From positions 62,001 to 126,000 of the forward strand of contig CAXIUP010000191.1 in the NCBI GenBank assembly GCA_964035015.1: a stretch of DNA of 64,000 bases, read 5' to 3'. Under the pieces are notes generated by a model, which was given only the letters and a program-made list of their open reading frames with translations, did no database searches and was not told the DNA's origin. The position numbers were made by a program, and so were the translations under genes. The stretch's first letter is position 1. Every line of letters starts with the position of its first letter. Source of the stretch: Corallium rubrum. Its lineage: Eukaryota > Cnidaria > Anthozoa > Scleralcyonacea > Coralliidae. Positions 12,236 to 62,818 of the stretch are shown here, piece after piece.

Positions 12236-13024
12236 CTACTGGTACATTCTCGTTCCCAGAGCCTCTCCCGTGCTGGCGCGCTGGAAAGGTTCTGGGGGAA
12301 TCCATAATCATCGCGAGCTGATTGGTTGTTCAAATTCAAAGGCCTATATATAACGGAGCTTAGTGAATGTTTATAAATAAACAGTATTTGAGACACGAAA
12401 TCTGACAACGAAGCACAATTCTAATATAGTTCTAATCCGAACAATTTAATCGAACGTTTTTCAAAGCAATCAACCCGTTTCCCCTTATATAATTAAATCA
12501 AACACGGAAGAGAGACAGCAATTTGAAACCGATAGGTGATAGACGATAGACAGCACACTGCAGGCTGTTAGAAGTAAATATACAAGTCAAATATAAACGA
12601 ACGGTGCAAAATATTAAAGAGAACTACCTTCACTAAAAGAAGCCGTAAACACGAAGAAATTCCGACACGGCCCTATTGCCAAGCTCTGAAGCGAACTCGT
12701 AAATTTTAATGTATTTTGCCTCACCGAGTAAATGCGGCGATGATCCACACTCGACAAGGCCCTTCTTCGAACGGAATCTACCATAATCAGAATTGTTCCA
12801 AAGTTAAACGAGTCAATACGAGACAGAATCGAAAACGAAAGGAAAATTATATTCCAAACAACTGTCGATGATCTCGTGTCCAACTCCCAAACCGCGAACT
12901 TAAACGCATGCGCTTTAGAAAGAACACCAAAGAATCTTGGTGTTCCGGTTTTGGATTCTCCCAGAGCCTTTCCAGCGCGCCAGCACGGGAGAGGCTCTGG
13001 GAACGAGAATGATACTGGTACTGT
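12236..13024. mobile_element. Non-autonomous element with about 65-bp inverted ends
   Basis: The left arm (CATTCTCGTTCCCAGAGCC ... GTGCTGGCGCGC) recurs inverted at about 12958-13020. The interior is not coding in any convincing way. It sits in the intron between transposase exons 2 and 3, just left of the Tc1 foldback. Confidence 0.75.
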
Positions 13025-13221
13025 ATTTTTTTTAAATTTTGTGGTCCCAAACCAAGGGAGCACGCCAGATCGACTGACCTGTATTTCTTCTTCTTTGTCC
13101 AGCATTCCTTCATTTATATTCAGCCATTTTGAAAAATGCGGTATATTCGGTTATTTCATTTTCGGAACGCACTCAGGTTTCCTTGGGCCCCGTAGCCTGC
13201 GCCGGCGATACACTAATGATA

Positions 13222-14095
13222 CAGTGGGTGCCAAAAGTATGAGTCGAGTCCCAATTTTTGCCAAATATTCGAGAAAAGTGTATCTTCTGAAAAATAAACT
13301 TGCATTATCTGATTCTCTACACGCATGTGCGTCAAGAATGGCTAAAGATTTAAGTGGAGGAGTTAGAGAAAAAATTATTGCTCTAAGTAACGAAGGTTTC
13401 TCACAGCGACAAATTGCTGCAAAGATAGGAGTGTCGAAAGGTGCTGTGCAGCGAACCGTGGAAAGGTTCAGAGAAACTCAATCCTATTCCAACCTACCGA
13501 AGTCTGGGAGACCAAGGTGTACTACACCACAAGAGGATCAGTTCATAAAAGTAACTTCTTTGCGTAATAGAACAGCAACTGCTGGTAATATTCAATCGAC
13601 AATTAACGCCACCCGAGAGAAAACAAACAGCAAAACAACAGTAAGAAGGAGATTGGCTGCAAGTGGTCTGAAATTACGCAAAGAAGTTACTTTTATGAAT
13701 TGATCCTCTTGTGGTGTAGTACACCTTGGTTTCCTAGACTTCGGTAGGTTGGAATAGGATTGAGTTTTTCTGAACCTTTCCACGGTTCGCTGCACAGCAC
13801 CTTTCGACACTCCTATCTTTGCAGCAATTTGTCGCTATGAGAAACCTTCGTTACTTAGAGCAATAATTTGTCCTCTAACCTTCACTAAGATCTTTAGCCA
13901 TCCTTGACGCACATGCGTGTAGAGAATTAGATAAACTTATTTTCAAATTATATATGGCAAAATCTTTCAAGGACAAAATGTGGGAGACAACTGCAGATCT
14001 CAATGTGCATGTTCAATAGCTAATGCAAGTTTATTTTTCAGAAGATACACTTTTCTCGCATTTTGAGACTGGACTCATACTTTTGGCACCCACCG
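13222..14095. mobile_element. Tc1/mariner foldback element (TA target site)
   Basis: Ends are CAGTGGGTGCCAAAAGTATG at the left and the complementary CATACTTTTGGCACCCAC at the right, flanked by TA on both sides. The two arms (about 13222-13568 and 13675-14095) are inverted copies of the 5' part of a Tc1-like element, each carrying the N-terminal DNA-binding region. The loop is about 106 bp. There is no DDE/DDD catalytic region, so it must be mobilised in trans or be dead. Confidence 0.9.
13338..13703 (+). pseudogene. Tc1-like transposase, N-terminal DNA-binding part only
   Basis: From ATG at 13338 the frame reads MAKDLSGGVREKIIALSNEG, then a homeodomain-like helix-turn-helix (SQRQIAAKIGVSKGAVQRTV) and a second part (GRPRCTTPQEDQFIKVTSLR ... 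TTVRRRLAASGLKLRKE) matching the two HTH units of Tc1 transposases. The frame stops at 13703, where the inverted arm begins. The whole catalytic half is absent. The same domain, decayed, lies on the minus strand in the right arm. The open frame upstream of 13338 is not homologous and is not part of the gene. Confidence 0.8.
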
Positions 14096-32788: not shown

Positions 32789-33105
32789 TTAACCAAAGTA
32801 AAAGACTTCTACTTCAGATGGAGTGAAATGATAACTGCCAGCCAAGAGAGCTTGGGTGTTGCTGTAGCCAGAGCTGTAGCCAGATGGAGGTTGGTATGTG
32901 TAACCTAAATCTGTGTAAGAGCTTGTTGACAAGTGAGCGTTGTTGGCGATGTAGAGATCATTACCTCCAAAGGTGGGTCCATAACTAGATCTGTCGTGAA
33001 TTGCACTACTACTGCTTTGGACTGGAGCTTTAAATGGCTTTAAATCGTCTTTATTTTGGAGTGAGAAAAGAAACGCATCCGAGCTTGATTTATAACCACC
33101 TGACC
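32789..33105 (-). CDS. Exon 14: second half of the TLDc domain and stop
   Basis: Contains SDAFLFSLQNKDDLKPFKAP, SSYGPTFGGNDLYIANNAHL, TDLGYTYQPPSGYSSGYSN and FTPSEVEVFYF before TAA. This is the normal end of a TLDc domain (FLF.L.N......f......fG.gg.dl.i...........lg..y..p........ll.g...F...eiEVf.). Confidence 0.87.
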
Positions 33106-36100
33106 CTAAAAACAAAAGAAAATAACAAATAGTTGCAAACTGTTTTCAAATACTAATATTAAAGGAGGTTATGTCACGCTATTTTTAGCCTCGATTGTCT
33201 TATGTTGAAATTCTGAGCTGCAAACTTCAAAATTAAAGCTGTACATTAATTCAATTATAAAATATGAGTTACCCAACAACTATGGAAGATTTTTGAAACT
33301 TTAAGACCAAGTTTTTACACAAATTAGTCTAAACTTTGGTTACTCCCAGGCCACCAGAAATCAAGATGTCACATTTGCAATACCCTTCAATCTCGCCTTA
33401 ATTTTGATTACCTGTATTTCTGTGTAGGTACGGTTTCTAGTATCTTATATAATATATATCCGTTATTACAAAATTTTGTACAATTTTAGGTTTCTGGAAG
33501 AATGGCTAAAAATAGTCTGAGCCCCTTTAGATTATTGAAATATTTTTACAAATCAAACGTTGAACAATAATACTCTCATACTAAATAATAAAATTAGGAA
33601 CTACTTAACGGCGAGCGAGGTCATTACGGTAAAATATCAAAGATTGAGCGATAGGGAGGTAACGCTCAACGCCGAGATTTGATACTTTACAAAAGACCAA
33701 ACGGCCTAAGGTTATTAAGTAGGTTTTAATGATTCAAGCGGTTCTTTAAAGGAAAGGCCGAACAATCAAGCAAATACTAATGGCACACACACAAAGTTTT
33801 GTTGGAGAAGGGGTTTGGGGTGAAGTACTCCGATCGTGTAAAATTGTGGTCAAACATCATCCCAACGACTCATTATTACATGGCCTTAGACTGTTGTCCT
33901 GGGGTATATAATCCCCATTAGGACTCTGCTAATGCCCTAGGGGTAATAATCCCCGAGTAGGACATATCCTGCCAAAGGGGTAGCGACCCCCTAAGACATC
34001 GACCTGAACAAGGGGTCATAATCCCCTTGGACGGTTCTTACGATTCGACTGATCATTATATTTACATAAAATAACCTGAGTCTATGGGCTTGAAGGTGAC
34101 CATTGGGAGAACTTCATCCCCGAACCAGAACTTTATTTTTTACAGCAGGAACATAAAACCATCAAGAATATATTACACCAATGAATTATTTACAAAAATA
34201 GTTGCAAGTTCTTCAAACTATCTGTTCGTTCGTGGAGAAACATTACCACATGCTTCCCGGTGTCCATTGTTTAACACAACATAAAGGAAACTAGGCTAAA
34301 GATCTGCTATCAAATGATATTGGCAGATTACTTTCCACGTATATACCAATATTTTTCGTTTCGAAAATATTTGCGTAAGTGCAGCTTTGAAGCGGTGGGT
34401 GGGTGGGAAAAAATTCCTGTGTAGAGCTTACAAGCAGCTTTCAATGTAGAGCTCTTGGATAAAGTGATTAATTTTGGCGCGTTCTGAGCTTATATGTGAC
34501 TCTTGCGCGAATTGTAATTGGTTAGTTTTCCCACCGAAGAGAGAAGTAATGTTCTAATTGGTTAGCAAGTGCCGTATCACTTGTTTTTCACGTGCACTGG
34601 CAAGCTGGAAGAAAACGACCTTTAGAACTATCTGGCATATATATCGGTTGTTGATAGGTGGGAGTAACACCTTGGCCAACCTTCCTGTTCAGGGTTTTGG
34701 CACCGCTTGTAGTGAACGTTGTCTCATTAACTTTAATTTATATATTAGCACATATAAATTGGCTTTTATATGGTTCTTGTTACTCAAAAATCGATCAATC
34801 ATGATGTATTTTCTGGTCTCCGCCTCCTTTAACTTTGTCAAAATGCAGAACTAGGATTCTGCTGTTTATTTTCGTCAGCTATTTCAAATATTTTTATTGT
34901 TTTGAGTTAATAAAAGATTTTTAAGTTGTTGTTTTTTTTAGGATTTTCTTGCTTGTTTTCAATCGTAAGGCGTTTTTAATTCACGTCAGAAAGCAATCAC
35001 GTCGCACGATTTAAACGGAAGTAACCTGTGCCATACAAAATCCCTTTTCAATATCCTTTTCAATAAGGTGTTTAGACCATTGTGACCTTTGGAGCATGTC
35101 GAGAAAGAAATACAATGTTTACTAGTTAGTGTCATGTTGCACGGGAGTTTTTATAGACGTACCAAAATAGGTGAATACTTACGGTAAAGTGGGACAATTC
35201 AATTTTATGGTAGAACTGTATAGTTTAAAACATAATTAAACAATTTATGAATGTTGAACATGCTAAAATTACTTGGGTGATTAATCCAACAGCATTTTCC
35301 ATAGGCATTGTAGTCAAATAAATTTTGAAGAGAAATATTACCGAAAAAAGGTAAGCCCTCAGTGTTTTGACCAGCGCGGCGAGGGAACTTCAAGTAGTGT
35401 AACTAAAAGGCCTCCTGGCTTTCGTGCACGCTGCCAAACAAGGGTTGTTTTTTGATAAATATTTCGTAAATAATAAAACCACTTGAAATTAGTTGTCTGT
35501 CAACTGACTTAACTGTTTAGCATACTTAATCTCATCTATCTCGTGTATGAAACTGTTTTAAGCGCCTATAATATAGGGGGAGACATTAGGATTTTCGCTA
35601 TTGCGGTATCAGTTTTTGGTTTTCATACTGTATTTCGGTAATTTTGCAGCTTCGGTGAGGTATTTTGTTTTATCATTCAAGCAGGTTTGGTATTCCTTTA
35701 TTTTTTGACGCTACTGTGTTTTTTTACGATTTCTTTTTGGTGGTACTACGCTTCGGATTACCAATGTTCCCTTCATAATAGTGCGCCGTTCTACTGCTTA
35801 TCCCTCAAAGCTCGGTTTTCGTATAAGATCGTGTCCATATTTTTATTCAGTGACCTAAAATTAAAACTGAACAGTCCGAACAATCATTCAAAGCTATATA
35901 TTCCACTTTTATATAATCGTTCCAATCGCTTAGTGCTCAAGTCGATTGCGTGTAGCTGCTCGACTCAAATCGACAACTTTAGCGCAAATAGTTAAAATGA
36001 TACTATAATTATGTCGTTTCTACGAAGCGTATAACTTTGCGCGCGTGAATTTTGTAAATTGAATAGGTATAACTCCAGTCTTTTTTGTTCCAGTAAGTAA

Positions 36101-39100
36101 TGAATTGGGTGGAGACATGTTTCGGCTCCATCTCAGTTGAAGCCGCAACTCTACGAACGATTTTTGGATGCACAACTGCACGTGATGGAATAATTTTAAA
36201 TTGTGGAGCGCGGTCCGTAAAAATCGCACATGGAGCATCACCCGTAAAAATCTCTGACGTGCAGCACGGCCTGTTAAAATTGCACGAGTAGGGTCCTTAA
36301 AAATCGCACGTACACGGCGGCTTGTGAAAATGGCACATAAATCACGCGTGAAAATCGCATGTGGAGGTTGCAAAGACGACGCGACCGCTGTTAAAGTTGC
36401 ACAAAAATTTCTGAAAAATCTAATTATAGTTCGTAGAACGTTGCTTTTTTTGAGAGCAATAAACTGGAAAGTTTCTTTATGTTCATACGGAAGTTTCTTT
36501 AAGTTAGTATAGACGATGGTACTGGTTTATCTTTAAGGAAAATGTATTTAACCTTAAACAGTAAGTTGTGGTAATCGTCGGAGGCGCGATTGTACTATCA
36601 CTTTCAATAGCCGGCGCTAGAGGAGAGAGCTGGCCGAAAACAGAAGTTTGGTTTATTACAAATCTTTGTACACGTACAGTGTAGTTATGGGTTACAACCA
36701 CTGAACTATATATATGAACTGGATAGGGCATTCCGATCCCTATGAGCAGTATGGTCAGCAATCAAACATTTCATGCCAGTCGCCGCCATCTTACGTAGGA
36801 ATATACAAACAAATGACGCATTGCGGCCTTAGAACTTGTTTCCAATCCCAAAATTGACTGGCATAAGCAATCCTGACGTCAGCAAGGTCAGATTATACGG
36901 CGGAGGAATATTAAGTACTCTGTGCCGGGAGAGTCGGAAAAGCTGTAGAGCAAACAACACAGCCGGTTCGTTTAGTTTTCACTGTTTCACAACAAGAGAT
37001 ATTGTTAAGGCATTAAGATTACTATAAAAGTTACAATTTAAGACTTGGAATTGAATTCGATGTAGATTTTATAGTCTGTTTTTCAGTTTATATTATTGTG
37101 AAGTCTCCACGTTGTCGGCACTGAAGAAAAACAACGAAATTTAAAAGTTTCACAGCTCAGTAATAAAAACAAATGCAAGAAGTTAGCGTCTTAAACGTTA
37201 TTATTGAGTTACTTCTTTTGTCCTTACATTCGTTTAAATTTTCTTAAATAACTCTTTTTGTCTGTTTTTAATCTACGAAAGCTTTTGAACTAGTTTAGTG
37301 GCGACAATCTTAGGTAGTGGTCATGTCATCATACAGCTGGCACGCTAAATTCTGCCCCATGTCCTATCCAGTTTTATTTTTATTGAGTTCAGTGGTTACA
37401 ACTTGCTACTTTTAACAAGAAAGGAATCAAATTGAAGTCAGTACTTTTGTTGCAAAAAACATTTTCGACCAAGCCTCTCATTCATAAATTTCAAAGACAA
37501 ACAAAACAAAACAAAACAAAACAAAACAAAACAAAACAAAACAAAACAAAACAAAACAAAACAAAACAAAACAAAACAAAACAAAACAAAACAAAACAAA
37601 ACAAAACAAAACAAAACAAAACAAAACAAAACAAAACAAGGCAAGGCAAGGCAAGGCAAGGCAAGGCAAGGCAAGGCAAGGCAAGGCAAGGCAAGGCAAG
37701 GCAAGGCAAGGCAAGGCAAGGCAAGGCAAGGCAAGGCAAGGCAAGGCAAGGCAAGGCAAGGCAAGGCAAGGCAAGGCAAGGCAAGGCAAGGCAAGGCAAG
37801 GCAAGGCAAGGCAAGGCAAGGCAAGGCAAGGCAAGGCAAGGCAAGGCAAGGCAAGGCAAGGCAAGACAAGACAAGACAAAACAAAGGGACAGATAAAGTT
37901 TTTGGTAAAATAAACATAAAATAGCTTTTACGAACATTATAATCCAAAAACGCTCTCTTTCCCCGTTTTAATTAATTGCGAAAATGCCTGCCCTAAATCT
38001 TAACTTTCTTGTATTCAGAATTTTCCGATGCTATACGTCTTGAGAAAACATTTGTATTATTTTCACGGCAGTAACGTTTTTGTGGTATTCTCTTTATCAA
38101 GCTGCATTCAGTTTTAAAGAACATTAAATCTTAATTTTCATTCAAAAAGACATAACCAAAACAGTGTTACTCCTACCTGTCCATGAGAGATCATTATAAC
38201 CTCCAAAGATGTATTTTCCAACACGCACAATGGTAACGGTGGCGCCTTTATTGTCACATCTTAAGTGAAATGTAGACGCTGCCCATCCATCTTCTGAAGC
38301 ACGGTAACAAAGATTCCAACGAGTCTTGACAGGAAGCCATTGTTGAATATGTTTAAGAAAGTCGAGTCTACCAAGCAGGATAACGGATGAAGGATAATCT
38401 AAATTAATGTTCTACTGTGAGAAACTTAACGAAATTTAAACAATGTTGTTACTAACACTGACACTAAAAGTTAGGATAATTTTGATTTTTACTGTTTGAT
38501 GTACATTAAAGTGCCTATCTCAGGGTTGGGGATTTTACATATTTAGGATATTTGGAACATTTTAAGACGATTTGTAATATATCTTGTCAGACGAAAATTT
38601 GTGAAGTGATGTCAAAGCAGGGATTTAGAAATAGGGTTTAATATACACATATTCCTGCTTTGACGTCAAAATGACATCACTTCCGGAACCTTTAACAGCG
38701 AAAAAGCCCATGAAGATGAAATTTTCGTCTGACAAGATATATTACAAATCGTCTTAAAATGTTCCAAATATCCTAAATATGTAAAATCCCCAACCCTGAG
38801 ATAGGCACTTTAAGTGCTATTTCTGCAATTCTGCATTACTCTAGTTTGTATATATGGGCTTTCATCATGGCGAGAAATGGTGGACATAGAGAGGCGGAGC
38901 TAAAGCCCTATTAAACTAGTACCTATGTCGTGCGGTCGTCACAGTTCCGCGGTTCAGAAGAAAAGAGAACAACTAATTTATGCAATGTTGGATGAAATCT
39001 TCATTCGATGATCAGAAAATACTGAAGCTTTGAGATTGAAAACCGCAACAACGACAAATACAGGCTAGAACTGAAGAATATCATCGAAAAGACGGATCTT

Positions 39101-42100
39101 TATAGTAGCCGAATCAGATCGAAGCTTGTACGGAAATAGTATACCTCTGTTTGATTTTCGATAACGTGAGCAGCAAGGTTGGTACAATTTGCGTATTCGC
39201 CATATTGGCTTATGTTAGACTTGTGCTCAAAATAGTATATCAAAAACCGCAACGGATTTAATATCTGTGGCATATCGCTCATGATATTTATATCGCAGAT
39301 GTGTTGCACTATACGATTCAGATTGAAACATTTGAAATAATTTAAAAATTGACACTGCTACGACGATTGTTTAACTCATCTTCTATGTAAGTCCTATTAA
39401 TCTTGCAGAACTTTTCTAGTCAAAATTTTTGTAAGTGGGCATGCATTACGCGCCTGCGTGACCATTATTTCTCGCCATGTCCAGATTGGAGCCTCGCTAG
39501 CGCTCTGTTGTAATTGACTCTCGTTGTGATTTATTTGTACGTAATTTTTTTCTTTGTTCTTTAACTATCATCACAACGGAAGTTTAAATACCTAACCAAA
39601 TTAAAGCAAAGTTAAGACTGTTGAAATAATAATAAAAAATAATATGCACATATTAAATTATATATGATTTGCTTAAGAATATGTAACAATAACGTACGTT
39701 TGCTTCTATTTTCTGCTTGATTATAGCATGTTCGGAATGAGAAAAAAATGGAAAGAGAGAAAGTGGAAGATATAATAGGACTAAATTGGACTAAACAAAG
39801 AGTAAAAGGATTACACCACCAAGTGATGATATAGATTTTCTATACACACGACGACAATTATGGAATTTTAAAATGAGATGGTGGAGTAACTCGGCCAGGG
39901 ACCCCAATTTCTCTTTTCCAAAAAAAGGTCAGAATAACGAAATATATATAATTTTAAACTTAAAATCACTACAAAAATCTATACAAAAACAAATCAATAA
40001 ATTTGGTTTTTGTATATACTCGGACTTTAATCCAACACCTTTTTGAAGAAGGACTCTTTTCTGTCATCCATAAAAACCTTTTCAACAAACATTTTGTAAT
40101 CTTTAGAAAATTATTCTAAAAAGTTATATGATAAAACTTTCATACCCTATATGTTGATAGAATGATAGATTAGAGAAAAGCGATAGGAGATGATTAATAT
40201 ACAAGCTAAAGCCCTTAATAGATTTATATTGATAAATAACTTTGACAAGAAACGTCAGTATTTCCTTCTCTGAAATCTCAGCTCACCATCTTTAAGATTT
40301 TTTATACACCGTAGCACACTGCCGGCATGCACAGCACTCTACTTTTATATTACTCCATGATCTAATCTGATAAAAAGCTTCAAGTTTAGTACAAAATACC
40401 AACCTGACATTCTGTGTATGAATTGACTCAAAGTTTGATTCACGTTTCTCAGCTCTGTGTCAAGTCGAGAGAGATCGTTGTTTACATGACTTTCCAACCG
40501 TGTCTTTAGTTGAGATAGATCTGTGTTTACATTTCCCAACTGAGTCTTAAGTCGAGAGAGATCTGTGTTTATATGATTGTCCAACCGTGTCTCAAATTGA
40601 GTAAGACTTGTGTTTAATATGTTAATCACCTTTGAAGATAAAACAGAATTTGAGAAATTCAAATAGCCGAAGAAAATGGTCATCTTACCAACATGCAAAG
40701 AACTCAAAACGATTAACGCTGTATTTTAAAACAAATATGAATTTACCTTTTGATTTTGATTCTCAAGCTTTTTCTCAAATTGATTCAGTTTAGGTTCAAC
40801 CATTTTTGATGTCTTTTCAAGGACCTTAATCATTCAAATTCATAAAACAAACTCAACAAAATTATAAAAATACGTAGGCGCTGCATACATGCGGATATTG
40901 CTATTGAATTTGCCATTTGGCATGAATACAGTAGCTCAAATAAATTTTGTTTGAAAACATTACTTTATTAACTTTTCGCATAAAGTTGAACGGTCACGTT
41001 TAAAACATTTAACTTTATTTGGTACATTGAAAGGTTATTGTGTATAGTACGCCAACTTATAACAAATAAGTACTTTAATAAATTCTCTCTTTCCAAAGCA
41101 ATTTTTACCTCAAAAGAATAGCAGCCGCTCTCCGATACGATACCGTTGATGTGCCCAACACTCATCCTGGGATTACTGATATAGAAAATCTCGTGCATGG
41201 GGATTGTATTAAAACGGACATTTATATTTATAATTAGTATAAATTTAGAAGTTTATAATGCAAATCCTCGAATTTCATTGGCTATTGCAGGAGTTTATAA
41301 TTGGTGATATAAACCTCTGGGATAAACCAATGAAAGTCATGCTTTTAAAAAAAATGACCAATGACACAATGCGTAGCATAGCACGAACAATGATCATTAG
41401 AGCCAGCGGTTGTTCTGTTAAGCAACAATGGCGCCGAAATTATAACGAGTATGCAAATGAAAGAAGAAATTGAACATTTAGGCGAAGCAATACGTTCTAC
41501 AGAAGAAAAAAACCGGCTACAAAATGGTTAGAATGGAAATTATTAATGGTGAGAGCGTTAAATTGTTTATCTGTGTTCGTTTAAAACGAAATAACTGGAA
41601 ACAAAACACATTTCAAAATTACGCTTGCTGTTGACAAGATTTCGTGATGTAAACTATACGCTAAATTGAATGTTTCTTTCAACTTTTTGTCACTTTTACA
41701 AATCAAAGGAATGGATATATATTGTTTCAATATTGTACATGAAAATCCATGCTAAATTATGCAAGAAAACTTTACTTTTCCATCGGTTACTGTACGGGCC
41801 AAGGAAATGTCCGAAATGATCTTTGAACGTTTGTTGTTGGCAGTTAAAAAATGTATTAAACGAGCATCAAAGAATATGTTATGTTCGAGAACTTATTTAA
41901 CTTTTGCTGGTAAATTTATACTAAAACAATTAGACAACTCGCCCTCGTTTTCTATGAGCGATAGTCAACTCGGCTTCGCCTCGTTGACTATTCGCTCATA
42001 GAAAACTCGGGCTCGTTGTCTAATTGTTAAATAAAGTACCTTTTCCTCCTCGGCAACTACGTTCCAAGTTTTATTTGCTCTTACGTAAAGTTTCTTATTA

Positions 42101-45100
42101 TCTTTACGATATTCCATTAGTCCAGGAACGGATGGTATTTTTTTGACAGCAGCGCTATCAGAGACAACAACAATCTAGAAGAAAAAAGTTTTGATTTTTT
42201 TATTTCTCTTAATAAAGTGACTAAATTTCTCAATCATAACTCTCCCCCAAATCTTCATATATTTAAATTAAACCGCAATCCATCCATCAAGAATGCCTTA
42301 ATTATAAATAAGTCTAGTTAGAATTTAAGTTAACCAAGGATTTGCTATAGGTTTTTTAAAAGAAGATTCTATGCAGTTTTAAATACTTACTCCGTCGTTC
42401 AGAAGAACTTCGTTCTTGGCACAACGACCCTAATAAAAAAGACTGTCTGATCAGTAAAACAGAATTATTTATTAGATTAGAAAAAGTTAAGTTTGGGAAT
42501 GTCTTTCTCTTGTATACCCATTACACAATTAAATTTACACTTAAAAAATTGTTAAACGTATGTATCTCTAAATCTGATTTTTGTTAAACAAAAAACAAAA
42601 TATAAACGACTGCTGCCATAACCTAAGCTAACCTTTTTTGGTACTCCACTTCCATCTTTTAACTTGTACCACACAACGTCTCCATTGTCTGCAGTAACCT
42701 GGTACTCCATGCATTTGTTCCAGATTCTTTTTGGAAGAGCAGATCTCACCCAAAACCATGTATACACATTTTTTGTAATGGTTCCTCCGGGTTTAGCTTG
42801 GCAATCATCACCACAGTAATTTCCCGTACCAGCCAATGGACCATAACAAGCACAACACTAAATATGTTAATGTTAATAAAATAACTAGATTTCAAGAAAT
42901 TACAGTTCTGAGTCAATTATTAATTATAGACAACACTTACCTTATTATTGTCACAACCAATAAACGCTGTTGAATCATGGTGAATTCCAGAAACATTCCC
43001 AGTAGCACTGTAACTGTTGCAAGAAGAAATATATAAGATTATATAATATTATATAATAATTTTCACTAGTTGAAAAATGTTCACTAATCAGGAAGATTTT
43101 TCGCTAGTAAAAATTGTTTATTCAACGAGAAGTTCAAATTTGAAATGTATGATCTATTATTTCGTCAAGCTCAATTACTCAGAAAAGATTTCTGAGACCC
43201 GAGACAGGGTTCGAACCTGCAACGGTCATTAGAAAGTTGCAGGTTAGAACCCTGTCTGAGGTCTCAGAAATGTTTGTTACATTACACCAAGCTCGCTAAC
43301 GTACGTACCACATGCACTACATTCATGTATACGTACAACTTATGTCACTATTTATTTCTCTCATTCATTTTACATAAATCTCGGTACTTATATAATGAAA
43401 AGAAGTGTAGCAAGATTACCTGAAGGCTCCGGAAAAGGCAATTTGAAGATCAACTATAGGGTGATCATAAAAAGCAAAGCCTCGACTACATGGCCTTTCC
43501 AAACAAGAGTTCATCATAGCCTGTAAAATAGAATGTTAAACACAATAGTTAAATAATAGTTATTCCAATCCTCTCTACTGCTAAAGTACTGAGCACTTCA
43601 CAGTCTATTGCGCAAACCACTTATTGAACTATAATTATATATAATAAGCAAAAACTGTTAAAAAAACAACTTATACCCATCCAAACTTTGATGCTGGGTG
43701 ATGAGCAAAGCCAAAGACGGAGCAACGAAAGGTAGTCGTCACAATCTTTTCTGTCTGCAAGTCCTTCACATAAGAAATGTCTCCGATTCCAGACGTAGTT
43801 GGACCACATCCTCCTTGGTCCATTATCATAAGATTTTTTAATGGTCGTTTAGATTGCAGGCGAAAAGACCTAAGGCATAAAAAAGTGATAAATATCATTT
43901 CTTAACATCCACAAGTTAATAACGGTTATAACAACCATGAAGTAGGTTGACTGAGACAACTTTGTTTATGATAATACAATATTACAATGTAAACAGAATT
44001 AAGCCTGCATGAATACGTCGTATATAATAAGTGTGATGAAAAGAAAATTCTCGGTTATATACGATTAGGAACATACCATACAAAGAAACATATCTCCATT
44101 GTAAAATATTGTCTAAAGACATTATCTAAAATTGCCTACCAGTGTGCTTTGGTTTGTTTAAAATCTTCACTCGTTGCCATTTGAATTCTAAAATCCAAAA
44201 TCGGAGCATCACCAAGCGCACTAGACCAATGACGATCGCCGAATGGTTCAACAGGATAGTTATTGGATGGCACAGTGAATGTAATAGAGTCGTTTTTTCG
44301 CCCAATAAGCATAAAACCACCACCGTCTGTAGTCATATCACACCAGACCTTGATTGAAATAGAAAAATATCGTTAAATCATGCGATGCCGTATAGATAAA
44401 TGAATACATTAGAACAAACAAACGAACGAATATGAGAACGAACAAAGAAACTCGCCTACACACAAAATAAAGCTAAATGTCAATGTATCTTTAATCATAC
44501 AAAGACACAAAGTTATATCACTTATATAAGTTAAAGAGACTCCGATTTAAAATGCATATAATTAGCAAAATAAATCTTATGAATTTTATACAGATAAACA
44601 TGGCAGGCGCATTCACTAAGAAATCAAGCAAATGTGCTACAGTATGGTATTTGAGCTAGAAACTCTCAAAGCTTGCCATGGCCAGGCGCGTGTTTGGCTT
44701 GTTGCTCACGTGGGGCAAGCCAAACTTTTCTGCCGAGTAAGTAAGTGAAACGTCGATTTGTTAAATGACAATTTGCCAACTGTTTCTGAAAATCTGCCTA
44801 TTTCTAAAAATCTGCAGACTATTTCTAAAAATCTGCCATACGTCAAACACGCGCCTGGCCATGGCTTATTCATTTTGGAAGAAATTGCTGACAACTTTGT
44901 CACCTGCTCTATCTATATTCAATCCAAGTCTTTCCTTTAAGGTTACAAATAACGTTAAACTGCGTCGAAAAACCAACTTTGGTACTTAGTATCTCGAAAA
45001 TGGACTATCTACAGTACATAAATGCGATTATGATAATAAAGTTCATAAATGCATTAATAATTCACGAGGAAAACACAAATGAAATCAGTACCATGTCCGT

Positions 45101-47263
45101 GGTTTTATATATCTGATAAAGAAACCTCCTGATTTACATAAACTTTAGCTTTGATTTACTCGACTTAGACAACGTTATTTTTCAAACTTACTACGCCAGT
45201 GAACTTACCAAATGGGCCGTTTTTGAAGCTATTTAAAACATTCGCAGTACGTGCTTTATCAGATCTAAAACATTCGGCTATCGCCTCGTGTTTTAAATCT
45301 GATAAAACACTGCTGCTCATGTTTTAAATATTACATAAAAAAGTGTTCACGAAATTTTCATGAAAATAACAAATAAATAAAGTGCTTGTACTTTGTGCTT
45401 TCATTATTTCAATATATTATTATTTGTATGTGTTCTAACGACAACCAAATTTATACGAATCTTCAGCTTTATATATGGCAATTTTGTTGAATTAAATATA
45501 GTATAGACATATCTCGAAAGAACTATATACGTTTCTCTCTGACGAAGGGCCTTTGCTCGAAACGTTAGACTCCTACGCGTTCTCTGTTTCGGCAGTATAT
45601 CTAATCTTACTATATTCGATTGTTGTTTCTACACTGCCTACGCAGCGCCGTACTTTTATTTCACTATATATTTGATGTTTGAAGTTGGTTATAGTTATTT
45701 GTATCAGGAAACAAGCAATATTCATTTTAACCAGTGTGTAATGCATAAAAACGCAGTATATAAACACGTTAACTAGCAATGACGAACCTTCTTGGGAACA
45801 TTGCCATCAAGTTGTATCCAATAAAAGCCATCTTTAGCCTCTGCGTCTTTGTCCAAGATATCAGAGCAATCGTAACCAGGGTTGAACAATTCTCCAGGTG
45901 GGCTTACACCTAGATTAGAAAGTTTATACCGGCTGGTGGCGTACAATTACTCGTGATTATGAAGGAAATACCTATTTGCAACCTGCTGTATGTAATTATA
46001 CTTTTATAGTCAAACAGGCTGAAAGATCAGAACTAAAAACCAGCAATAAATTTAACCAAAGCCCACAAAATTTCATTTTAAATAACATTATGCAAAGCTT
46101 GAAAAAATTACAAAATAGTACATCCATCCATCCAGTGTTATCAAATTACAAAAAGCATTTACAAAAACGAAGAAATAAGAAAGACAATTACGATCGTATT
46201 CAATTTAGCAAACATATAGACCAGAAACAAGAGATCAAAAACTAAACAGAAATTCAAAAGCTTATATAAACAACGAAATATATCGTTGTAATGCATACCG
46301 TCGATTGGCCTCCACTGATAAATGCCATTGTTTTCAGTACAAATTAAAATTTTCTCCTTATTTTCTCGATCTTTGACCAACACTTCTTCAGCATGATTGC
46401 TTTTGTCACATGAACCAGGATCATCGCTGTCGAGAACTACGATGCCTCCCTATTCAATAAAAAATCACAAATTCAACAAACAAACAAACAAACAAACAAA
46501 CAGAGGGAGAAGATTGTCTTAAAACCTTGCCATGCATGAATAGACAACTCGGATAACTAAGCTTCCCGATCTCCTCATCTATACCAAAAGCAGTGGATAC
46601 GATTTTCGGTCTTGCCAAATTGTTTATCTCATTTACTTACACATCAACAATAGTCAATACAACTTTCTGTCTATAATTATATCCTGTTATATTAATGCAT
46701 TTTATAAGGTTGGTATATTAGTAACATGACCCACAACGTTACCCAAATGCAATCCCATCTATTCGAAACGTTACAGGTTCGAGTCCCGTCTAGAGTTCAA
46801 AGTTTCCTGAGTATTAACATGTAACCACAGGTTGTACAGCAAGAACTAACAAAAAATTACAAACTCCAAGCTGAGAGTACTACACTAACTAACGACAGCT
46901 TATACAGCAAGAACAAACAAAACATTACAAACTCCAAGCTGAAAGTACTATACTAACTAACGATAGCTTATACAGCAGGAAAAAACAAAACTTTACAAAC
47001 TCCAAGCTGAAAGTACTATACTAATTAACGACAGCTTGTACAGCAAGAACTAACAAAACATTACAAACTCCAAGCTGAAAGTACTATACTAACTAACGAC
47101 AGCTTGTACAGCAAGAACTAACAAAACATTACAAATCTCAAGCATGTTAACGTATAATTCGAATGATGGTCCCGCATAGACAGATATAAAAAGCCAAACT
47201 TACCTCACAAACATTGAATGATATTCCACAAAAGAGTACAACAATTCCAAACCAGCAATCCAT
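32789..47263 (-). CDS. Secreted fibrinogen-like / coiled-coil / TLDc protein, 14 exons
   Basis: Exons in transcript order: 47204-47263, 46299-46449, 45788-45909, 44140-44348, 43677-43869, 43420-43520, 42941-43013, 42633-42857, 42391-42429, 42040-42174, 40747-40824, 40404-40629, 38177-38398, 32789-33105. All have GT-AG introns and every phase agrees, giving 716 residues. Residues 1-20 form a signal peptide. C85 to about 378 hold a fibrinogen-like start (YDCSDILDKDAEAKDGFYWI, VWCDMTTDGGGFMLIGRK) and a Cys-rich region (CGPTTSGIGD, CCACYGPLAGTGNYCGDDC) like cnidarian 'skeletal organic matrix protein 5' relatives. Residues 392-436 resemble a collagen-type trimerisation segment. Residues 437-537 form a coiled coil. 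Residues 538-716 are a TLDc domain. TLDc proteins are usually intracellular, so a secreted one is unusual. Two genes (split at 40.8-42.0 kb) remain possible, but the frames join cleanly and no stop or start lies between. Confidence 0.75.
33600..33722. repeat. Foldback repeat in the last intron
   Basis: ACTACTTAAC...GGTCATTACGG is mirrored loosely by CCGAGATTTGATACTTTAC...TTATTAAGTAGG. Related to 9213-9376. Confidence 0.5.
33888..34042. repeat. Four palindromic GGGGT...ATCCCC boxes
   Basis: CTGGGGTATATAATCCCC, AGGGGTAATAATCCCC, AAAGGGGTAGCGACCCCC and AAGGGGTCATAATCCCC occur about 35-45 bp apart, each followed by a GGAC or AGAC motif. No gene. Confidence 0.7.
34043..36190. other. Intron sequence, no gene seen
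   Basis: Inside the intron between TLDc exons 14 and 13. AT-rich; a short hydrophobic frame at 35687-35995 has no recognisable features. Confidence 0.5.
36205..36415 (+). repeat. Degenerate tandem repeat, GTAAAAATCGCAC core
   Basis: Six to seven diverged units about 30 bp apart: CCGTAAAAATCGCACATGG, CCCGTAAAAATCTCTGACG, CTGTTAAAATTGCACGAG, CTTAAAAATCGCACGTAC and so on. Non-coding. Confidence 0.6.
37497..37885 (+). repeat. Compound pentanucleotide microsatellite, (AAAAC)n then (AAGGC)n
   Basis: About 27 AAAAC units switch abruptly near 37637 to about 45 AAGGC units, ending with three AAGAC and two AAAAC units. All long frames here (KQNKT, ARQGK, LPCLA) are repeat artefacts. In the last intron of the TLDc gene. 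Confidence 0.97.
38177..38398 (-). CDS. Exon 13: first half of the TLDc domain
   Basis: Contains SSVILLGRLDFLKHIQQWLP, TRWNLCYRASEDGWAASTFH and KGATVTIVRVGKYIFGGYND. These match the TLDc hallmarks (LLYRaS.DG.s...FH..CD.kG.T..iv...g.iFGGy...sW). Phase 1 at both ends. The 5-kb intron that follows holds microsatellites. Confidence 0.85.
38510..38809. mobile_element. Foldback MITE with TTAA target site
   Basis: The arms start AGTGCCTATCTCAGGGTTGG and run over 90 bp as near-perfect complements, with a loop near 38640. It is flanked by TTAA on both sides (38506-38509, 38810-38813), the target of piggyBac and Kolobok elements. The end sequence does not tell which. Confidence 0.88.
38868..39485. mobile_element. 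Possible element with CATGGCGAGAAAT ends
   Basis: CATGGCGAGAAATGGTGGACA at 38868 is mirrored by ATTATTTCTCGCCATGTCCA near 39465. The interior is AT-rich and non-coding. It is in the intron between exons 13 and 12. Confidence 0.45.
40404..40824 (-). CDS. Exons 11-12: coiled-coil stalk
   Basis: Exon 11 (40747-40824) reads VLEKTSKMVEPKLNQFEKKL and on to NQK. Exon 12 (40404-40629) contains three related stretches (TDLSRLKTQLGNVN, TDLSQLKTRLESHVN, NDLSRLDTELRNVN) with leucine spacing typical of a coiled coil. The near-repeats suggest internal duplication. This stalk would set the oligomeric state and separate the head from the TLDc domain. Confidence 0.75.
41917..42035. mobile_element. Foldback element (ACAATTAGACAACTCG)
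   Basis: AAACAATTAGACAACTCG...GAAAACTCGGGCTCGTTGTC forms a nearly complete hairpin with a GGCTTCGCC loop region. It abuts the donor of TLDc-gene exon 10. Same family as 31950-32050 and 8085-8212. Confidence 0.8.
42040..46449 (-). CDS. Exons 2-10: fibrinogen-like / skeletal-matrix-like region
   Basis: Exon 2 has GGIVVLDSDDPGSCDKSNHA and CTENNGIYQW. Exon 3 opens the fibrinogen-like fold (NPGYDCSDILDK). Exon 4 has WCDMTTDGGGFMLIGRK. Exon 5 has KNLMIMDQGGCGPTTSGIGD and FRCSVFGFAHHPASKFGW. Exon 8 has CCACYGPLAGTGNYCGDDC. Exons 9-10 end with RKDNKKLYVRANKTWNVV, which resembles collagen NC trimerisation segments. The paired cysteines fit an extracellular protein. The classical fibrinogen C-terminus (calcium loop, GGWW) is not seen, so it is only fibrinogen-like at its start. 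Confidence 0.75.
43190..43275. repeat. Hairpin of SINE-B halves
   Basis: TTTCTGAGACC...ACAGGGTTCGAACCTGCAAC faces its own complement across a short loop. It carries a B-box-like GGTTCGAACC in one arm, so it looks like two inverted 3' parts of the tRNA-derived family. Confidence 0.6.
44668..44872. repeat. Inverted repeat, CCATGGCCAGGCGCGTGTTT arms
   Basis: The left arm at 44678 and right arm at about 44846 are complementary (AAACACGCGCCTGGCCATGG). The interior has repeated AAAATCTGCC units. It is in the intron between exons 4 and 3. Confidence 0.65.
45047..45212 (+). repeat. Dispersed repeat, copy 1
   Basis: Shares about 165 bp (AAATCAGTACCATG, CCTGATTTACATAAACTTTA, CTTAGACAACGTTATTTTTC) with 56835-57000. 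No coding frame is evident. Confidence 0.75.
45226..45345. repeat. Foldback repeat
   Basis: TTTAAAACATTCGCAG...GTGCTTTATCAGAT is mirrored by ATCTGATAAAACACTGCTGC...TGTTTTAAA. Intronic. Confidence 0.7.
45536..45569 (+). ncRNA. Hammerhead-ribozyme-like motif
   Basis: TCT, CTGACGA (45539-45545), GGGCCTTTGCTC, GAAACGTT (45559-45566), AGA. Stem I is only TCT/AGA. About 60 bp downstream (TTTCGGCAGTATAT ... CTTACTA) matches the copy at 51704, so both belong to one repeat family. Plus strand, opposite to the surrounding gene. Confidence 0.45.
46778..47158 (+). repeat. SINE-B fragment with a tandem-amplified tail (68-69-bp unit)
   Basis: Starts with a B box (AGGTTCGAGTCCCGTC). Then about four units of ACAAACTCCAAGCTGAAAGT ... 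CTAACGACAGCTTGTACAGC follow, with starts near 46858, 46927, 46995, 47063 and 47131. It lies in intron 1 of the TLDc gene. Confidence 0.85.
47204..47263 (-). CDS. Exon 1: signal peptide
   Basis: MDCWFGIVVLFCGISFNVCE: a short N-terminus, a hydrophobic core and a Ser-Phe-Asn-Val-Cys end, followed by the donor GAG|GTAAG in phase 0. The ATG is preceded in frame by AT-rich non-coding sequence. This start places the protein in the secretory path. Confidence 0.75.
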
Positions 47264-61162: not shown

Positions 61163-62818
61163 ATGAACGAAATCAATTCAGAGCTCAAAACCATTGCCGA
61201 TAAACTCAACATCTCTAAGCGCATAGATCCCATAAATAAGACTCCAGCATTCATATCATTAAAAGACCACAAGCCCGACTTTGAAAAACCAACCGAAATG
61301 CCGCCTAATCAACCCCAGCAAGAGCCAACTTGGAAAAGTCAGCAAAGCGCTACTTGACAAAATCAACAGCAGAATACGTGCCCAAACCCAAGTAAACCAA
61401 TGGCGAAACACCACCGACGCAATCTCTTGGTTTCAGTCAATTAAGAATAAAGAACGAAAAACATTTATTACATTCGACATCGTGGAGTTCTATCCCTCTA
61501 TTTCCGAAGAACTCCTCGACAAAGCAATCGCATGGGCCAAGCAGTTCACTGAAATATCCGAAGACGACATTGCAATAATAAAGCACGCCCGCAAGTCAGT
61601 CCTTTTCCATAACAACCGCACATGGTCAAAACGCAACTCAAACAGCATATTTGATGTGACTATGGGAAGTTTCGATGGAGCAGAAGTATGCGAACTCGTC
61701 GGCCTGTTCATCCTAAACTCACTGCAGAAACTCTTTGGCAAAGATGTTGGCTTGTACCGCGACGATGGCTTGGCTGTGCTCAACACTAAATCTGGCAGAC
61801 TATGCGACAAAGCAAGAAAAGACCTCTCACGCACATTCAACGAACTCGGACTAAGTATTACTGCACTAACTAACCAAACACGCACTAACTTCCTTGACGT
61901 AACACTCGACCTCACTAACGGCACTTACAAACCATACAGAAAACCAAATGACGAACCGCTTTACATTAACAGCTCCTCCAACCACCCACCGCCTATCCTA
62001 CGGGAACTCCCCCACTCGATTAACAAACGAATCAACACGCTATCTTGCGACAAACAAACGTTTGACATAGCAGCACAGGAATACAACGACGCCTTAAAAA
62101 AAGCAACTTCAACGCACGACTTAGCTACCAAACACAGAACACCAACGATGACCCACGACGCAACAGAACACGGAACGTACTATGGTACAACCCCCCTTAC
62201 AGTAAGAACGTAACGACTAACATTGCACACACATTTCTACAACTAATCGACAAACACTTCCCCACTACAAACAAACTGCACAAATTATTTAACAGACACA
62301 CTGTACGAGTAAGCTACAGCTGCAGCGAGAACATGAAATCTTTCATCTCAAGGCACAACAAAACAATACTAAAACGACACGATCAAAGAACTGAAACGAC
62401 AAACACGAACTGCACACGAAACTGCAACTGCAGACGTACTGAAAGATGCCCTATGCAAGGCAAATGCCTACAAACGAACGTTATTTACAAAGCCGATGTA
62501 ACAACTACAGACAACGACGAGACGAGAACATACATAGGAGTAACAGCAAACGCCTTTAAAACACGGTACAGGAACCACTGTAAATCACTAAACAACCGAC
62601 GATACCAAAACGAAACCGAGCTATCCAAACACGTCTGGCGATTGAGAGACAACAAGAGAGAATTTACCATCAAATGGGGAATCATTAAACAAACCCAAGC
62701 AAGCTCAAGAAGATGTCGCTTATGCCTAGAAGAGAAACTCCTGATCTTAAAAGGCCGGAAGAAGAACATTCTAAACAAACGCTCGGAACTATTTTCTAAA
62801 TGCCGCCATGTAACTTAA
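61163..62818 (+). pseudogene. Penelope-like element copy 1: RT + GIY-YIG, 5'-truncated, two frameshifts
   Basis: The frame begins at MNEINSELKTIADKLN, inside the ORF, with no N-terminus. RT blocks: LKDHKPDF, RLINPSKSQLGK, motif A FDIVEFYPSI, motif B MGSFDGAEVCELVG, motif C YRDDGLAVL, then NFLDVTLDL and KPNDEPLYINSSSNHP, the usual PLE C-terminal RT signature. A Cys-rich stretch follows (CTRNCNCRRTERCPMQGKC), then a GIY-YIG nuclease (VIYKADV, TYIGVTANAFKTRYRNH, CRLCLEEKL, NKRSE). Frame breaks: one extra A near 61283 compared with copy 2, and one missing A in the A7 run near 62096-62102; the correct frame after it reads NPPYSKNV. The RT-then-GIY-YIG order is that of canonical endonuclease-bearing PLEs. 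Reading by eye, I cannot exclude assembly errors in the A runs. Confidence 0.88.

Follow-up and report, generated by a model that had tools for sequence, protein, structure and literature searches.

A gene on the minus strand (47263 to 32789) of the window, a 64,000-nucleotide stretch of Corallium rubrum DNA that is part of contig C202 in a genome of 474 Mb and 312 contigs, seems from its sequence to code for a secreted protein with a coiled coil and, at its C-terminus, a TLDc domain. The C-terminal half of this domain, encoded by exon 14, is under strong diversifying selection across a gene family, while exons 5, 8 and 13 show none. We consider it probable that the family provides germline-diversified recognition, with the TLDc domain of a secreted, oligomeric coiled-coil protein as its recognition module. 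The gene structure, the copies, the hydrophobic leader, the coiled-coil pattern and the pattern of selection are directly observed in the genome.

Diversifying selection on exon 14

We compared the window gene with two further copies, one on the same contig (C202b, 32,078-10,676, minus strand), which has all 14 exons in order and encodes 678 residues, and one on contig C13 (15,809,028-15,827,266), which has 13 exons, without exon 11, and encodes 658 residues. Pairwise ratios of nonsynonymous to synonymous substitution rates (dN/dS, omega) against C202b were 0.25 for exons 3-8, 0.06 for exons 9-10, 0.85 for the coil and 0.75 for the TLDc domain, so that constraint was strongest in exons 9-10. 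The corresponding values against the C13 copy were 0.25, 0.11, 0.81 and 0.81, with a dS of 0.73 in the head and 0.18 in the TLDc domain.

For codon models, we sampled 24 of the 31 exon-14 matches with at least 72% identity (20 fetched, plus the window gene, C202b and two on C13), leaving out 7, and, as controls, 24 copies of exon 13, 19 of exon 8 and 10 of exon 5, each exon being analyzed alone. The models were run with our own script (F3x4, fixed IQ-TREE tree) and sites were called at a posterior probability >0.9. All 24 sampled exon-14 copies are intact and 104-107 residues long. Their 23 distinct sequences gave an omega of 1.46 under M0, and twice the log-likelihood difference (2dlnL) was 223 for M1a against M2a and 207 for M8a against M8, with 17 sites called. 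The control exons yielded low values throughout: exon 13 (22 distinct sequences, one dropped) had an omega of 0.43 and a 2dlnL of 1.3, exon 8 (19 copies) 0.22 and 0.3, and exon 5 (10 copies) 0.25 and 0.1. Counts made without a tree point the same way, as the proportion of nonsynonymous differences (pN) exceeded that of synonymous differences (pS) in 145 of 253 exon-14 pairs, compared to 6 of 231 for exon 13, 8 of 171 for exon 8 and 0 of 45 for exon 5. Restricting exon 14 to the 16 copies that belong to head-bearing genes gave a 2dlnL of 156 on the full tree and 169 on a third-position tree (11 sites each), 147 with shuffled tips (15 sites) and 64 and 65 in the two halves; exon 8 with shuffled tips gave −0.4. 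With intact copies, and with positive selection limited to sites within a single domain (controls: exons 5, 8 and 13), this qualifies as a diversified multigene family.

In the window gene, the selected positions are residues 614-616, 641, 642, 644, 645, 650, 653, 663, 665, 675, 680, 696, 703 and 704, together with a gap that follows residue 658. The 17 sites have a mean pairwise identity of 0.35 and the rest of the exon one of 0.90, 46 of the 91 remaining columns being invariant, and the 23 genes carry 23 different signatures. The letters at these sites are 27% tyrosine, 13% glycine, 10% arginine and 9% histidine, followed by serine, a mix of residues that is seen in binding surfaces. A constant scaffold, a coil and a near-invariant TLDc framework with hypervariable residues of this composition form the pattern of a diversified binding protein, and the 17 sites name the positions to exchange in a binding test.

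Since synonymous distances in exon 14 are far below those of exon 8 in the same genes, the TLDc exons look as if they had been exchanged or converted between loci while the variable codons went on changing. Mean pS in the 13 genes with both exons was 0.368 for exon 8 and 0.111 for exon 14, which had the lower value in 61 of 78 pairs; in the 36 pairs that set one of the four genes with a divergent head against one of the remaining nine, the values were 0.610 and 0.118. Distances in the two exons were weakly correlated (Mantel r 0.25, p 0.07). Homogenisation of this kind could suggest that gene conversion, alignment or a mutational hotspot produced a spurious signal of selection. We regard this as quite improbable: the tree-free counts agree with the models, the signal survives the shuffling of tips, a hotspot ought to raise synonymous changes as well, and alignment gaps are few because the 24 copies are of nearly uniform length.

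Identical copies also occur: C13 has two of exon 14, and exon 13 provides two pairs of identical proteins, the members of one pair lying about 391 kb apart on C13. Between 15.6 and 16.9 Mb, this contig holds an array of head-TLDc genes in which blocks are repeated about 391 kb and about 463 kb apart, with some copies identical. These may represent real duplication or duplicated haplotypes in the assembly.

Gene structure and domain architecture

Rebuilding the exons from the sequence reproduced the chain proposed in the initial annotation, 14 exons on the minus strand that join without phase conflict to a product of 716 residues. All 13 introns run from GT to AG (13 GT donors, 13 AG acceptors) and the stop codon TAA is at 32791-32789. 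Exon 1 (47204..47263) contains the ATG and a hydrophobic leader, MDCWFGIVVLFCGISFNVCE, which is a probable signal peptide. The protein's most hydrophobic windows begin here, with means of up to 2.1, compared to 1.1 for the highest 19-residue mean past residue 25; by hydropathy and exon position, the leader described earlier holds up. At the same place, the C13 copy has a different candidate leader, MYFKIFLICLSLVGCSISK, its exon 1 being a candidate picked by leader and donor.

The head, which has 13 cysteines between residues 71 and 378, continues with exon 2 (46299..46449), a segment with two cysteines and no Pfam match that is 98% identical to C202b and 38% identical to the C13 copy. A fibrinogen-C-like region begins in exon 3 (45788..45909) according to Pfam and includes the stretch VWCDMTTDGGG in exon 4 (44140..44348), which has matches to tenascin, intelectin and ficolin. 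The Pfam match (Fibrinogen_C, PF00147) covers residues 83-151 with an E-value of 9.9e-7 and 29.2 bits (cut-off 22), corresponding to profile positions 3-71 of 221 only. Matches to fibrinogen-type structures end within the first 56-125 positions, and the domain was not recovered in complete form, including its C-terminal binding part. Of the fibrinogen-like head in the initial annotation, the first third of the domain is therefore above the Pfam cut-off, while the remainder is not recognisable. In ficolins, intelectins, tenascin and other fibrinogen-C proteins, it is the first 60-80 residues of the fibrinogen-C region that match. An identity as intelectin was rejected because the N-terminal part alone matches, the matches to intelectin and XEEL being limited to the first 50-83 residues of the region. 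The head proceeds through exon 5 (43677..43869), which has no known domain and is under purifying selection, exon 6 (43420..43520), exon 7 (42941..43013) and the conserved, cysteine-rich exon 8 (42633..42857), and ends with exon 9 (42391..42429).

Exon 10 (42040..42174) encodes the segment PSVPGLMEYRKDNKKLYVRANKTWNVV, which precedes the coil and has no Pfam match and no convincing match in PDB. A motif LYVR...W, which we took to resemble collagen, had prompted the idea of a collagen-type trimerisation domain here, but no profile match backs it: for the trimerisation domain of collagen XV/XVIII, searches with exons 9-10 gave no Pfam match up to a maximum E-value of 10 and no collagen among the PDB matches to E 10. 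The check for a collagen trimerisation domain proposed earlier thus found none in either database.

The coil comprises exon 11 (40747..40824), an optional segment in phase 0-0, and exon 12 (40404..40629), whose length differs among copies. In exon 12, 21 hydrophobic residues follow each other at an unbroken 3/4 spacing over 73 residues, which 0 of 10,000 shuffles reach, in agreement with the coiled coil that had been proposed. The strict heptad count is weak (best 12 of 29) because the 3/4 spacing includes steps of 4-4-4.

Exon 13 (38177..38398) encodes the N-terminal part of the TLDc domain, without positive selection, and exon 14 (32789..33105) the C-terminal half with the 17 selected columns. 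The Pfam domain TLD (PF07534) spans residues 551-716 with an E-value of 1.5e-25 and 90.5 bits (curated cut-off 24.5), aligning to profile positions 12-170 of 170; the whole domain is thus present, as first annotated, and the TLD match was also obtained for C202b and the C13 copy. Neither RING nor B-box is among the Pfam domains of the window gene. A long tandem repeat of five-base units (window 37500-37900), CCTTG and then TTTTG on the minus strand, lies in the intron between exons 13 and 14.

Head, coil and TLDc domain are very probably one gene, judging from the comparison of its copies. The alternative, named beforehand as what would speak against a single gene, is a pair of neighbouring genes, one for a secreted head protein and one for an OXR1-like coil-TLDc protein that stays inside the cell. 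The window offers two candidate starts for the second gene: an ATG located 9 bases upstream of exon 11, and an ATG in the open frame that precedes exon 12. Two of four copies lack both: in these, exon 11 and the ATG beside it have decayed or are gone, and the second ATG is not present either. The donor of exon 10 and the acceptor of exon 12, by contrast, are kept in all four. The exon lengths of C202b and the C13 copy differ from those of the window gene by multiples of three throughout. In the whole genome, we found at least 109 head exon matches (100 of 359 candidates scored), forming 43 clusters. Among the matches listed, 18 of these clusters are followed on their own strand by a TLDc first exon within 35 kb, and none is preceded by one within 35 kb. 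Head and TLDc domain hence recur together in at least 18 places of the genome, and three intact copies were spliced in full. Among the same matches, 25 of the 43 head clusters are not followed by any TLDc match within 35 kb, and 77 of the 95 TLDc first exons lack a head at this distance, so the two modules also occur elsewhere; this would fit two genes. Since the junction sites are kept, the ATGs are missing in half of the copies and the order of head and TLDc domain is one-sided, a separate downstream TLDc gene is very unlikely indeed, and a jointly duplicated gene pair retains a slight probability.

Heads without a TLDc match within 35 kb downstream are found on C46 (11.34-11.47 Mb), C39 (487-710 kb), C12 (13.9-15.1 Mb) and C34 (34-37 kb; L021, L069), and the head copies on C46 and C34 are 91-95% identical in exon 8. 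At L021, the one place that was followed, head exons 7 and 8 are present, and the next 7 kb yielded no match for either exon 9 or exon 10.

TLDc domains in TRIM-like and other genes

A second set of TLDc exons is associated with TRIM-like frames. At two loci, C51:6278401-6288400 (L027) and C12:39301-49300 (L028), frames with RING and B-box domains and a coil precede a TLDc domain; further members of the TRIM-like/TLDc family were seen on C12, C1, C8 and C23. We selected the 58 of 108 TRIM-like N-terminal matches with a coverage of 300 or more of 385 residues and compared them with the full set of 95 TLDc first exons. A TLDc first exon followed within 3.5 kb on the same strand downstream of 25 of the 58 and upstream of none. 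Within 12 kb the counts were 29 downstream and 14 upstream, the latter because TRIM-like/TLDc genes sit in dense arrays. This association is one of position.

Exon 14 of 21 TRIM-associated TLDc copies, 20 of which have a TRIM-like match within 20 kb upstream, gave an M0 omega of 2.13 and a 2dlnL of 249, with 19 sites. Of the 16 sites of the window family that could be used in a joint alignment of 103 columns, 11 coincide with these 19 (p 1.1e-6), and the column entropies of the two families are correlated (Spearman 0.68). Since both TLDc families share ancestry, the overlap indicates a common surface and not independent origins. Chances seem about even that the TLDc domain, with one hypervariable surface, serves both secreted coiled-coil and TRIM-like proteins as the outside and inside arms of a defence-like system.

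At L026 (C46:1045501-1055500), EGF and calcium-binding EGF exons lie upstream of a TLDc exon and may form a third, extracellular TLDc architecture; we kept them unjoined because other genes could intervene.

Proposed diversified recognition and its alternatives

TLDc domains have otherwise been described from intracellular proteins. Those described in PMC11066047 bind the V-ATPase of cells, which is proposed there as their conserved role. The window gene shares a complete TLDc domain by Pfam with OXR1, NCOA7, TBC1D24, mEAK7 and the yeast proteins Oxr1 and Rtc5, and its domain has weak sequence matches to those of skywalker (E 0.027) and mEAK7 (E 0.08). Unlike the V-ATPase-binding proteins described, it has a leader, a cysteine-rich head and a hypervariable C-terminal half. 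A text find in the review PMC5614904 returned neither 'extracellular' nor 'secreted', and among titles and abstract openings, with supplements and most subscription journals outside this scope, there was no report of an extracellular or hypervariable TLDc domain. A role at the V-ATPase may still apply here, but would leave the selection unexplained.

Ficolins and C1q present globular heads on oligomers, as the window protein would its TLDc domains, and fibrinogen-C proteins share this plan of a secreted oligomer. In comparison with ficolins and other fibrinogen-C proteins, the window gene has no recognisable remainder of the fibrinogen-C domain; its fibrinogen-C-like region stands at the N-terminus and is constant, and variation falls in a different domain. 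Among the diversified immune proteins of invertebrates, snail FREPs and VCBPs vary in Ig-type or fibrinogen domains; they are secreted multigene families with constant and variable parts, as proposed here, where the TLDc domain varies instead. TRIM proteins have a variable C-terminal SPRY domain, to which the RING and B-box frame followed by a variable TLDc domain can be likened. The window gene differs from these TRIM-like genes in having a leader in place of RING and B-box.

The large family with a hypervariable C-terminal TLDc half is more suggestive of recognition than of a static place in the matrix. Most likely, TLDc is the recognition domain, outside cells in the case of the window gene and probably intracellular in the TRIM-like genes. 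The protein would be secreted via its leader and oligomerise through the coiled coil, displaying the TLDc domains at the C-terminal ends; the N-terminal head would be the constant part and the C-terminal TLDc half, with the selected sites presumably at its surface, the variable, ligand-binding part. The repertoire may have been built by tandem duplication, by homogenisation that acted on TLDc exons across genes, and by diversifying selection on some 17 codons. Recognition of varied targets ranks first, with microbes, symbionts or other non-self as the most likely ligands, and allorecognition second. Allorecognition or gamete recognition molecules, which would recognise self, should leave the same selection signature, with many intact paralogues and a distinct signature per gene. 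We nevertheless consider this rather unlikely, since many variable columns are shared with the TRIM-like TLDc family and TRIM-like proteins are normally intracellular, where individuals do not touch. Less probable still is a structural protein of matrix or mucus (mesoglea, skeleton) with the TLDc domain as a passive cap: leader, cysteine-rich head, coiled coil and the conservation of the head (omega about 0.25) would suit it, but a passive cap should not give an omega >1 in one exon in which about half of the remaining columns are invariant.

Several points weigh against diversified recognition by the TLDc domain. Simple pairwise dN/dS over the whole domain (exons 13-14) is 0.75-0.84 and hence below 1. 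The codon models were self-implemented, with fixed trees, a limited optimiser and no independent check of convergence, and the likely homogenisation between genes violates their assumptions, although the signal was kept on shuffled trees. One exon-14 match (C13:16922110), listed with a stop, lies outside the 24-copy sample, and all of the variation compared is that among paralogues within a single genome. For exon 14 folded on its own, pLDDT was 31 and the model was discarded; the overlap with the TRIM-like family is partial, with 5 of 16 sites unshared. If diversified recognition is nonetheless correct, the few domains known to be diversified for recognition in animals would be joined by a new fold, the TLDc domain would gain a role beyond V-ATPase control, and extracellular and TRIM-like families would be linked through an overlapping variable surface.

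In the whole genome, G000:C15:1058146-1058367 was the sole GFP-family exon match among six scored candidates; together with the fibrinogen-like, EGF and TRIM-like proteins, it suits an animal and plausibly a cnidarian. Elsewhere in the window, a frame at 12744-13703 (plus strand) contains a transposase-like helix-turn-helix segment, Tc1/mariner-like by eye, and two overlapping frames at 61263-62818 (plus strand) are reverse transcriptase-like with a GIY-YIG-type end, Penelope-like by eye.

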